64,000 bases of DNA, from positions 62,001-126,000 of the forward strand of contig DASPKU010000011.1 of NCBI GenBank assembly GCA_035627955.1. The letters are read 5' to 3'. Of the stretch, positions 13,494 through 16,465 are shown one piece after another (the stretch's first letter is position 1; every line of letters begins with the position of its first letter). The notes under the pieces were generated by a model. It was not told where the DNA came from. It made no database searches and worked only from the letters and a program-made list of their open reading frames with translations. Both the position numbers and the translations under genes were made by a program. This stretch comes from Phycisphaerales bacterium. Lineage in GTDB: Bacteria > Planctomycetota > Phycisphaerae > Phycisphaerales > UBA1924.

Positions 13494-14999
13494 ATGCGCA
13501 CCATCGCGATCATCAACCAGAAGGGCGGCTGCGGGAAGACCACCACGGCCATCAACCTCGCCGCCGGTCTCGCCCGCCAGGGCCGCCGCACCCTCCTCAT
13601 CGACATGGACCCCCAGTCCCACTGCGCCGCCGGCCTCGGCATCCCCGAGCAGCGCATCGAGATGGACATCGGCGACGCCATGCTCGCCGTCGGCCAGCGC
13701 CCCATCGACCCCACCAAGCTCCTCTGGAGGGCCGGCCGCAACCTTGACCTCGCCCCCTCTCGCATGCGCCTGGCCGGCCTCGAGGCGCCCCGGGGCGGCC
13801 TCGCTGACCTTGTGGACAAGGACAAGCGCCTCGCCAACGTGCTCACGCACCTCAAGGGCGACTACGACGTCTGCTGCATCGACTGCCCGCCCTCGATCGG
13901 TCTGCTCACGTACAACGCCCTCGCCGCGGCCGACACCGTCCTCATCCCCGTTGAAACCTCCTTCTTCTCACTCCAGGGCGCCAACCGCCAGCTCCAGACC
14001 GTCAAGACCATCGCCCGCCGCCTGGGTGTCTCGCTCCCAGTGTGGGTGCTGCCGACGATCCACGACAATTCCAACGCCGTCGCCATCGACCTCCTCGAGG
14101 AGCTCTACAAGCGCTTCAAGGAGAAGAGCTTGCCGCTGGTGATCCGGCGCGACGCCAAGCTCCGCGAAGCCGCGAGCTTTGGCCAGTCCATCCTCGACTA
14201 CTCCCCCGAGTCCGCCGGCGCCGAGGACTACCTCAAGCTCGCTCAGTGGGTCGCCGAGAACCTCAAGCCCCGCGGCAGCACGGTTGTCGACCTTGACGAT
14301 GACATCACCGCCGACGAGACACCCGCGCCCGCACCGGTCGCCGCGGCCCCGACTATTCCAAGCGTTCCCACCTCCCCCGAGGTCAAGCCGATCTCCCGCG
14401 CCGAAGATGTCGCTCGGCGCGCGCAAGAGTTCCTCCGGCGCGTCGCCCTGGGCAAGAACCCCGGCACACCCGCACCCGAGACCACCCCCACCAGCTTCGC
14501 CCCCGTGACCCCCGCCCCCACCCTGCCGACCCCCACAGTCCCCTCCGGCCCGACGGTCGACAACGCGAGCGGCGGCGTGGCCACGCTGATCCAGCCGCCG
14601 GCCACCACGGTTCAAGCCACCCCCCAGCCCCGCTCCACCGTCCTCAAGCTGATCGAGACCCCCGCGACCAAGCCCGCCCCCGTCTCCCCCAGCACCCACC
14701 GCCTCCTCGGCGTGCGCGAGACCAACCAGGGCGTGCTCTTCGTCCAGCCCCTCACGCTGGGCGACAGCGTCTCCATCGCCGCCAGCTTCAACAACTGGAA
14801 CCCCACCAGCCACGTGCTGAAGGCCAATCCTGAGCTGGGCGTGTGGGAGCTCTGCGTCAAGCTGCCCCCCGGCAAACACACCTACCGCCTCGTCATCGAT
14901 GGCCAGTGGTGCACCGACCCCTACAACGACACCTGCGAGCCCAACCCCTTCGGCGAGACCAACTCGGCCTTCACCGTCGGCGCCCCGGCCCACATCTGA
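13494..14999 (+). CDS. ParA/MinD-type ATPase fused to a C-terminal CBM48/AMPK glycogen-binding-like domain
   Basis: 501 residues. The N-terminal ParA domain (1-265) has a deviant Walker A IINQKGGCGKTTTAINLA (KGGCGKT), Walker A' LLIDMDPQSH and Walker B YDVCCIDCPPS. A long Pro/Thr/Ala linker follows (about 270-405). The last about 88 residues (GDSVSIAASFNNWNP, LGVWELCVKLPPGKHTYRLV, IDGQWCTDP) match the AMPK-beta/CBM48 early-set fold that binds glycogen or starch-type glucans. ParA proteins position cargo by dimerising on ATP. The fusion suggests that glycogen or another glucan, or a glycogen enzyme, is the cargo (inference). No ParB is adjacent. The next gene begins 47 nt downstream and looks like a degenerate relative. 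Confidence 0.88.
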   Translation: MRTIAIINQKGGCGKTTTAINLAAGLARQGRRTLLIDMDPQSHCAAGLGIPEQRIEMDIGDAMLAVGQRPIDPTKLLWRAGRNLDLAPSRMRLAGLEAPRGGLADLVDKDKRLANVLTHLKGDYDVCCIDCPPSIGLLTYNALAAADTVLIPVETSFFSLQGANRQLQTVKTIARRLGVSLPVWVLPTIHDNSNAVAIDLLEELYKRFKEKSLPLVIRRDAKLREAASFGQSILDYSPESAGAEDYLKLAQWVAENLKPRGSTVVDLDDDITADETPAPAPVAAAPTIPSVPTSPEVKPISRAEDVARRAQEFLRRVALGKNPGTPAPETTPTSFAPVTPAPTLPTPTVPSGPTVDNASGGVATLIQPPATTVQATPQPRSTVLKLIETPATKPAPVSPSTHRLLGVRETNQGVLFVQPLTLGDSVSIAASFNNWNPTSHVLKANPELGVWELCVKLPPGKHTYRLVIDGQWCTDPYNDTCEPNPFGETNSAFTVGAPAHI

Positions 15000-15046
15000 C
15001 CGCTCGTCGTGCCATCGCCGCTCCAAGCTGCGTTTCGGAGAAACCA

Positions 15047-16465
15047 GTGCCCCCCATCCCCGCCCCCACGCCCGTCATCGACATGGATGTCGCCCCCACC
15101 GATTACGACGCCCTCGCCGACCTCTTCCTCGCCGACGAGCCCCTCGCCCGCCCGGCCGCCATCGGCCCGCGCCTGAAGCTCGCCAGCGACGAGGCCGAAG
15201 CCAAGCTCGACAAGAAGCCCGAGCCCACCAAGAGCTCAAACGGCACCACCGACTCCTCCAGCCGCGCCCCCGGCGTGGTCATCGAGGGCGTGCTCGCCGG
15301 CCACCTGCCTGTCCTCGCCTCCGCCTGGATCACCCAATACGCCCGCCACCTCGCCGACACCGACGATCAGCCCGTCGCTCTGCTGCGTCTGGTCTCCGGC
15401 CAGGCTGTCCTCGACCTCATCCTGCCCACCGGCCACAAGATCCCTGCCGACATCAGCACCGCCCCGGGCGAGAAGCTCACGGCCGTGCTCGCCCGCATGG
15501 CCGCGCGGTTCCGCCGCTGGGTCATCCGCGTCGATGAGCCCTCCGAGAGCGACTTCTTCCAGCAGCCCCACCTCGCCGGCATCGCCATCCTGACCGGCGG
15601 CGACGACCCCGCGATCGTCTCGACCTTCCAGGCCATCAAGGGCCTCTCGCATGACCTCACCGACACCGCCCCCGCGGTGCACCTGGTCATCATGGGCGCC
15701 ACCGACGCCCGCGCCGAGCTGGCCGAGTCCCGCCTGCGCCGGGCCGCAAGCCAGTTCCTCCGCCGCGACCTCCCCGCCGCGACGCGTATCCCCCGGATCA
15801 GCAGCTCCCTCGCCGTGCAGCTCTACCGCGCCCCGACGACAACAACCATCGCCGAAGTGATCGCCGCGCTGCGGGCCGCTCCCGCTGCCCCAAAGCCCCT
15901 CCCAGAGGCAGGGGTTGGGGTGGGTTCAAGCGACGCTCGCCCTGCAACCCCGATAAACAAGCAGCCCGTCGTCATCCCCACCATCCAGCCCGCACCCGCG
16001 TCCATCGCCCCCGCGCAGGTCCCCCACTCCTCCACTCCCCCGCTCCTCCACTCCACTTCTCCCACTCCCCACACCGCCTCCCGCGTCGGCCCGCTCGCGG
16101 TCGTCTCCGACCCGCTCCTCTCGCAGCTCCACCTCACGCCGCTCACCATCACCTGCCCTTACGCGCCCTCCATCCGCATGGCCGCAGACGCCCAGGGCCG
16201 CCTGCACCTGCTCGCCCTCGATGACATCGACCCCTCCGACGGCGCCGCCCGCCTGCTGACGGCCGCGTCCTGGGCCAACGACCACGCCCCCCTCCTGGTC
16301 GCCGCGGCCCCCGCCCTCAAGTCCGCCGCCGACCCCGCCCTGCACGTCCTCACCAATGATGCCAAGCTCGTCCGCCCGCTGCTCGACACCGGCCTGCGTC
16401 TCCACGCCATCACCCGCGTCGAGGTCGGCGGCCAGTCCATCACCGCCGTGATCGCCCTCAACTAA
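15047..16465 (+). CDS. ParA-fold-like protein lacking a Walker A, partner of the ParA-CBM48 fusion
   Basis: 472 residues from the GTG at 15047 (GGAG 6 nt upstream). Residues about 70-260 read like a SIMIBI/ParA Rossmann fold: strand PGVVIEGVLAGHLPVLASAW where the P-loop should be (no GKGGxGKT), then QPVALLRLVSGQAVLDLILP in the position of Walker A', and later VHLVIMGATDARAELAESRL. A Pro/Ser-rich linker (about 280-350) includes an in-frame dispersed repeat (15892-15928). A second alpha/beta region follows (PLTITCPYAPSIRMAADAQG to the end). It is probably co-transcribed with the ParA fusion. I infer a pseudo-ATPase partner; this needs structure prediction, and the family is otherwise unrecognised. 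Confidence 0.65.
   Translation: MPPIPAPTPVIDMDVAPTDYDALADLFLADEPLARPAAIGPRLKLASDEAEAKLDKKPEPTKSSNGTTDSSSRAPGVVIEGVLAGHLPVLASAWITQYARHLADTDDQPVALLRLVSGQAVLDLILPTGHKIPADISTAPGEKLTAVLARMAARFRRWVIRVDEPSESDFFQQPHLAGIAILTGGDDPAIVSTFQAIKGLSHDLTDTAPAVHLVIMGATDARAELAESRLRRAASQFLRRDLPAATRIPRISSSLAVQLYRAPTTTTIAEVIAALRAAPAAPKPLPEAGVGVGSSDARPATPINKQPVVIPTIQPAPASIAPAQVPHSSTPPLLHSTSPTPHTASRVGPLAVVSDPLLSQLHLTPLTITCPYAPSIRMAADAQGRLHLLALDDIDPSDGAARLLTAASWANDHAPLLVAAAPALKSAADPALHVLTNDAKLVRPLLDTGLRLHAITRVEVGGQSITAVIALN
15892..15928. repeat. Dispersed hairpin repeat copy 2, inside the 15047 gene
   Basis: AAAGCCCCTCCCAGAGGCAG then GGGTTGGGGTGGGTTCA. It matches the intergenic copy at 11126-11162 with few changes and is read in frame as PKPLPEAGVGVGS within the linker. 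Confidence 0.75.

Follow-up and report, generated by a model that had tools for sequence, protein, structure and literature searches.

A ParA-type ATPase carrying a CBM48 domain and its P-loop-less partner form a conserved gene pair in Phycisphaerae

What would a ParA-type ATPase do with a carbohydrate-binding module of the glycogen-recognition type, and what would a look-alike without a P-loop do beside it? The question is raised by two adjacent plus-strand genes in a 64,000-nucleotide stretch of a Phycisphaerales genome (contig DASPKU010000011.1, positions 62,001 to 126,000; here called the window). Gene 1 encodes P1, a protein of 501 residues that runs from an ATG at 13494 to a stop codon ending at 14999 and joins a ParA ATPase to a C-terminal AMPK-type CBM48 (hereafter CBM), as assigned by Pfam, ortholog alignments and an AlphaFold model. 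Gene 2 begins 47 nucleotides later with a GTG at 15047, its stop codon ending at 16465, and encodes P2, a protein of 472 residues identified as a pseudo-ATPase partner from homolog alignments and an AlphaFold model. The answer that we favour, at somewhat less than even chances, is that the pair constitutes an orphan ParA-type switch of Phycisphaerae, in which P1 would bear a glucan-sensing or glucan-anchoring head and P2 would dock by an N-terminal peptide.

The ParA P-loop of the first protein is complete, as the initial annotation of this DNA had proposed. The ParA domain occupies residues 1-260 (13494..14273) and contains a deviant Walker A motif, KGGCGKT (K10, K15), together with D39 and D130. 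Pfam AAA_31 matches residues 1-179 (E 5e-46), and the ParA catalytic positions checked (K10, K15, T16, D39 and D130) are kept in 47/47 aligned P1 rows. The AlphaFold model of P1 has a mean predicted local distance difference test score (pLDDT) of 81.9 and is confident throughout this domain, which matches ParA 8ray with a VIA Z of 36.1 (root mean square deviation, rmsd, 1.9 over 251 residues, 40% identity); the best-scoring row, 9a6n (Z 37.3), is an integrative model. P1 shares the entire ATPase domain with ParA and Soj, including the deviant Walker A motif and the catalytic residues. Unlike them, it adds a linker and a CBM48, P2 replaces a ParB-type neighbour, and the DNA-binding patch is less conserved than that of a second ParA paralog of the family. 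The linker is mostly disordered in the model, apart from a short predicted helix at residues 302-318 (RAEDVARRAQEFLRRVA, 14397..14447, pLDDT ~65) with the consensus SRAxDxAxRAxxLxRR in the P1 ortholog alignment. It leads to a beta-rich domain at about 400-495 that is again modelled confidently.

This last domain is the CBM, so that the fusion proposed earlier is upheld by sequence as well as by the model. AMPK1_CBM covers residues 423-496 (14760..14981) with 41.6 bits against a curated Pfam cut-off of 26.8, CBM_48 also passes (24.6 bits, cut-off 22.4), and P1 is the sole AMPK1_CBM match in the window's genome (E 0.001). By sequence, the domain aligns with the AMPK-beta chain 2f15 (E 1.1e-7), including the FNNW and DGQW segments. 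Four residues, W435, R465, W472 and N490, correspond to W100, K126, W133 and N150 of AMPK-beta, which we take to be sugar contacts; the first three correspondences appear in the 2f15 alignment. Among 41 CBM-bearing rows, these platform residues are found in 41/41, 40/41, 39/41 and 36/41, respectively. The likely sugar-contact positions are thus conserved. The likeness to the AMPK-beta CBM lies in the sequence and in these positions; the differences are that the P1 domain is joined to ParA, stands outside any kinase and has arginine instead of lysine at the basic contact. Stand-alone AMPK1_CBM frames of ~100-200 residues also occur in many relatives (e.g., G097:C40:17173-17418 and G099:C1:1777040-1777285).

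P2 has no Pfam or NCBIfam match, and a scan of 48 homologs gave only scattered weak family matches, each in one member. The AlphaFold model (mean pLDDT 80.6) has two confident domains, at about 76-281 and 355-472. The first (residues 76-281, 15272..15889) has its best structural match in the MinD-like ATPase FlhG, with a Foldseek E of 1.2e-5 and a VIA Z of 12.0 (rmsd 3.6, 161 residues, 16% identity). FleN comes next (Z 10.5), ahead of further SIMIBI folds with Z ~9 to 10; all of these structure matches are based on one whole-chain model. The P-loop is missing: a Walker A motif (GxxxxGK[ST]) is present in 0/48 aligned rows. At its place, the loop after the first strand (78-84) reads GHLPVLASAW (residues 85-94, 15299..15328), and a helix begins at 91 in the model. 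G85, L87, P88 and W94 are each conserved in at least 90% of the 48 rows, defining a GHLPxxxxxW motif. P2 therefore shares a fold with FlhG and FleN over residues 76-256 and differs from them in lacking the P-loop, in the GHLPxxxxxW motif and in carrying an extra N-terminal peptide and an extra C-terminal domain. The stretches that had been quoted as ParA-like strands correspond to residues 78-94, which comprise the first strand and the GHLP loop, and to the strand 110-116; the description of the second protein as ParA-like without a P-loop is borne out by the model and the alignment.

The regions flanking the MinD-like domain are conserved in different ways. Near the N-terminus, the peptide YDALADLFLA (residues 20-29, 15104..15133) lies in a low-confidence helix (17-28), and an LAxLFL-like motif recurs in 47/48 rows, while the rest of the N-terminus is variable. 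The peptide persists in altered form in other orders of the class, for example as SEISHLFLSS or NMADIARLFL. One lysine of a YRxLKxL-type segment is invariant in a P2 alignment of 14 rows spanning other orders. The C-terminal domain (residues 355-472, 16109..16462) is well modelled, with pLDDT block means of 83 (351-360) and 88-98 (from 361 on), and its H387 is invariant in the 48 rows. Pfam and PDB sequence searches gave no convincing match for it. A degenerate PD-(D/E)XK nuclease fold was suspected by eye; sequence searches were unconvincing, and no such claim is made here. P2 is shortened to a 305-residue frame at one locus (L076, genome G059), where the P1 CBM is retained.

The pair is nearly universal in its family. 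The genome samples consist of species representatives, many of them incomplete. P1 matches occur in 99/100 family genomes (E 1e-30), some of which are the second ParA paralog only; by reading, P1 itself is missing from three of the 100. P2 is matched in 96/100, and in 79/79 of those at least 90% complete. AMPK1_CBM is present in 93/100 genomes and lies within P1 in 87/100 (by reading, and including contig breaks directly before P2 in G017, G054 and G080), its status being uncertain in three (G007, G045 and G057). A scan of public genomes yielded 147 P2 relatives. Among the best 80 of these, which were fetched, all titles are planctomycete save a few "bacterium" and one "Leptolyngbya", and P1 lies directly upstream of P2 in 78, the other two loci beginning at a contig end. 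The genes are thus conserved side by side in relatives, as the initial annotation requires. The CBM is kept in 76/78 of these P1 proteins (two weak). Twenty further regions, mostly from genomes with low P2 scores, have P1 and P2 together in 20/20 and the CBM in 19, one of them weak. The Leptolyngbya title comes from L124 (QWIH01000002.1), in a metagenome bin assigned to Leptolyngbya sp. PLA1. This bin contains the planctomycete pair and has probably been mislabelled.

Farther out, P1 occurs in 191/201 genomes of the order (E 1e-75) and in 75/120 genomes of the class sample, counts to be read with the second ParA paralogs in mind, which score 210-247 bits with the P1 profile, little below the weakest P1 matches of the order and class. 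Across the phylum sample, 38/392 genomes have P1 at E 1e-85, and all 38 belong to the class; with at most four candidates scored per genome, no ParA-CBM protein was found outside the class at this strict threshold. P2, searched with the family alignment, which misses diverged relatives, was recovered in 14/294 phylum genomes, 13 of them in the order and one, weak and stop-containing, outside the class. Of twenty loci taken from the class and order samples with a preference for full-length P1, 17 represent other orders of the class. A ParA-CBM fusion is present in 18/20 of these loci, including 17/17 from other orders. Profile searches recognise a P2-like gene adjoining P1 in 9/20; in one more locus (L229), such a gene is recognised only from its position and its N-terminal peptide.

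Does P2 change where the CBM is absent? A first regression over 89 pairs was biased, the CBM-bearing loci having mostly been picked by P2 similarity; it was repeated with 36 CBM-bearing pairs, most of which were not picked in this way. In one CBM-less clade (L062, L063, L064 and L080), domain 1 of P2 is strongly altered (z 5 to 10) and GHLPxxxxxW is lost, while the N-terminal peptide is kept. The change is mild in CBM-less L066 (z 2.8 versus at most 2.5 among CBM-bearing pairs), and the CBM-less loci L065, L213 and L162 show no fast P2 change in the repeat. A general link between CBM absence and fast P2 change was accordingly rejected.

The surroundings of the pair suggest a housekeeping setting. 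Many of the relatives compared have lpxA, a metallo-beta-lactamase gene, rsfS and aroB before the pair, with clpX facing it; this block was identified by Pfam in one locus and transferred to the others by similarity. The block is broken in the window, where the pair has a universal-stress gene on its upstream side and a gene for a class I tRNA synthetase (ileS by reading) on its downstream side. In PADLOC, P1 gave nothing beyond weak P-loop matches, and P2 had no match.

How might the two proteins work together? ParA/MinD ATPases form ATP-sandwich dimers, act on a matrix and are docked by the N-termini of their partners, which are positively charged, according to PMC10241942. With its ParA fold and intact catalytic residues, P1 would bind ATP and dimerise like ParA. 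P2 fits the role of its partner because of the gene order, the conserved N-terminal peptide and the missing ATP site. The disordered N-terminus of P2 may dock on P1 through its short conserved helix, with the linker helix and the ParA dimer as conceivable sites. The linker helix is suggested as a candidate docking site: a loose linker motif is found in 67/131 loci with P2 versus 2/11 without a recognised P2 and 2.9% of shuffled linkers, figures that come from loci overlapping between fetches and hence not independent, and from a pattern that, by reading, misses the window's own helix. The ATP-dead MinD-like domain and the C-terminal domain of P2 would then either couple P1 with a client or control how fast it hydrolyses ATP. 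On its flexible linker, the CBM48 head, with its conserved contact residues, may bind an alpha-glucan or a similar oligosaccharide, and the sugar might anchor the switch or, by analogy with AMPK-beta, report sugar status. Concerning the linker, five loci with no recognised adjoining P2 (L221, L222, L228, L233 and L235) carry the motif ISASADELL or a close variant. At this position, SRPAELVQRAR-like segments are found in many relatives with P2, and L234, with a diverged P2, carries an ISASADELL variant.

Several observations weigh against this proposal. The N-terminal peptide of P2 is acidic in this order, whereas the known partner N-termini are basic (PMC10241942). The DNA-contact positions of P1 are only partly basic, and fewer are so than in the second paralog. 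A profile comparison (hhalign) of P2 with P1 found no similarity in the MinD-like domain, MinD and FlhG profiles not having been tried, and the kinship of P2 to MinD-like ATPases consequently rests on fold. In seven family genomes (G015, G023, G032, G036, G043, G067 and G084), P1 and P2 are both retained although P1 lacks the CBM, which is therefore not essential to the pair. Eight of the 17 ParA-CBM loci from other orders have no recognised adjoining P2; the ParA-CBM protein thus appears as the wider unit and P2 as its frequent partner. Finally, the conserved neighbours aroB, rsfS, lpxA and clpX name no client.

Other explanations of the pair must be set against this evidence. The closeness of the P1 ParA domain to Soj/ParA and the near-universal presence of P1 in the order would suit a chromosome-segregation ParA with P2 as a substitute for ParB. 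With the DNA-contact residues of Caulobacter ParA as reference (PMC7229837), P1 has R218 in 37/47 rows and arginine or lysine at 219 in 20/47, at 222 in 21/47 and at 224 in 46/47. RRNIK is kept in 12/12 sequences of the second ParA paralog, collected from as many genomes having one, yet this paralog lacks several of the other contacts. Its basic patch is fuller than that of P1, and the one example compared with 8ray scores 203 bits, against 165 bits for P1; both points argue against a segregation role for P1, as does the lack of a ParB or DNA-binding family match for P2 in Pfam scans that included its homologs. The rival gains from the second paralog in that no ParB was recognised beside it in the loci scanned, the family genomes not having been searched for ParB. 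Because no ParB was recognised beside such paralogs, neither P1 nor the second paralog is established as the chromosomal ParA. Segregation is the least probable of the explanations considered. The neighbours of the second paralog in the loci scanned (L186-L197) include glycosyltransferase 4, MurJ or citrate-transporter-like genes. The same paralog bears on the idea of a CBM-tuned regulator of polysaccharide synthesis or export like E. coli BcsQ-BcsE, which we consider unlikely. P1 passes Pfam CBP_BcsQ (55 bits, cut-off 21.3), and its fold matches include BcsQ structures. This family is not specific for P1, however, because the second paralog passes too (50.9 and 44.9 bits). P1 also stays below the cut-off of the NCBIfam BcsQ model TIGR03371 (94.2 versus 157.85 bits). 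Its fold agrees better with Soj/ParA, at Z 36-37, than with BcsQ, which reaches Z 27.8 and is not known to carry a CBM. PMC11470070 describes BcsQ as a SIMIBI (MinD-type) ATPase and the N-terminal NTPase-like domain of BcsE as catalytically incompetent; together with PMC7439463, this makes BcsQ-BcsE the closest known example of a machine that combines an active with a dead NTPase. The P2 profile does not match E. coli BcsE (hhalign probability 0.1), and no polysaccharide synthase occurs among the nine neighbour proteins scanned, a scan that did not extend to a search of the genomes for bcs genes.

The two remaining explanations turn on what the CBM recognises. The initial annotation had proposed the spacing or inheritance of glycogen granules, comparable to McdAB and carboxysomes, a model that draws on the glycogen-recognition type of the CBM and on the match of the P1 ParA domain to McdA (Z 30.0). 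P1 and P2 resemble McdA-McdB in having a ParA-type ATPase and, as proposed for P2, a partner that docks by its N-terminus (PMC10241942); P2 differs in its folded MinD-like domain. The gene content of the window's own genome (G000, 95.67% complete) speaks against granules, with no match at the thresholds used to glycogen synthase GT5 (PF08323, 1e-10), GlgB (TIGR01515, 1e-50) or phosphorylase (PF00343). McdA is not known to carry a sugar-binding domain. G000 does have one GH57 protein, located at L185:8252-9580 (G000:C19), with no neighbouring glucan-synthesis genes recognised by eye. GT5 is found in 2/100 genomes of the family, as partial matches above cut-off (61.6 and 45.3 bits), by a PF08323 search that is positive in 11/14 control genomes; GlgB is above cut-off in 23/100, GH57 is found in 90/100 and phosphorylase in 72/100. 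Near-absent GT5 beside common GH57 and phosphorylase-like proteins is an unusual mix of glucan metabolism for a family. Nor does the CBM follow these enzymes: CBM-less versus CBM-bearing genomes have GlgB in 2/7 versus 21/87 (Fisher p 1.0), GH57 in 6/7 versus 78/87 (p 0.56) and phosphorylase in 6/7 versus 61/87 (p 0.67), a comparison that excludes six genomes without P1 or of uncertain status and has little power with seven CBM-less genomes. G023, which is one of the two genomes with GT5, is CBM-less, and three genomes (G008, G030 and G077; 88, 93 and 60% complete) have the CBM and no GlgB, GH57 or phosphorylase match. A glycogen link as a general rule was rejected on the gene presence over the 100 family genomes. 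Glycogen granules as a general cargo are not supported, classical granules are unlikely in most members, and the granule model as a whole is very unlikely. An alpha-glucan ligand reached by other routes is possible, the searches having covered GT5, GlgB, GH57 and phosphorylase. The missing GT5, GlgB and phosphorylase in G000, and the dispensability of the CBM while P1 and P2 stay, would suit a CBM48 that acts as a protein-protein or oligomerisation module without sugar binding, in a pair that positions a protein machine. Against such a module stands the conservation of two tryptophans, a basic residue and an asparagine in nearly all CBM rows. In AMPK-beta these presumably contact sugar, and a mere protein contact would not need them. 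We judge this module to be no likelier than a BcsQ-like regulator.

The literature that was consulted, a partial look without most subscription journals, contains no description of a ParA-CBM48 fusion, and the fusion is likely novel in print. A bolder form of the favoured sugar-linked switch would extend it to the whole class, with the glucan as positioning matrix or signal and the pseudo-ATPase completing the cycle of a sugar-tethered or sugar-gated ParA. We think this extension rather improbable; if it were true, Phycisphaerae would possess a system for positioning or regulation that senses carbohydrate status and stands apart from those based on the nucleoid or the membrane. Chromosomes and carboxysomes are organised by ParA/MinD ATPases, as are flagella and division sites. 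A ParA with a glucan-recognition domain and an ATP-dead look-alike, as a near-universal pair in a poorly studied order, may point to a client or signal that has yet to be described.

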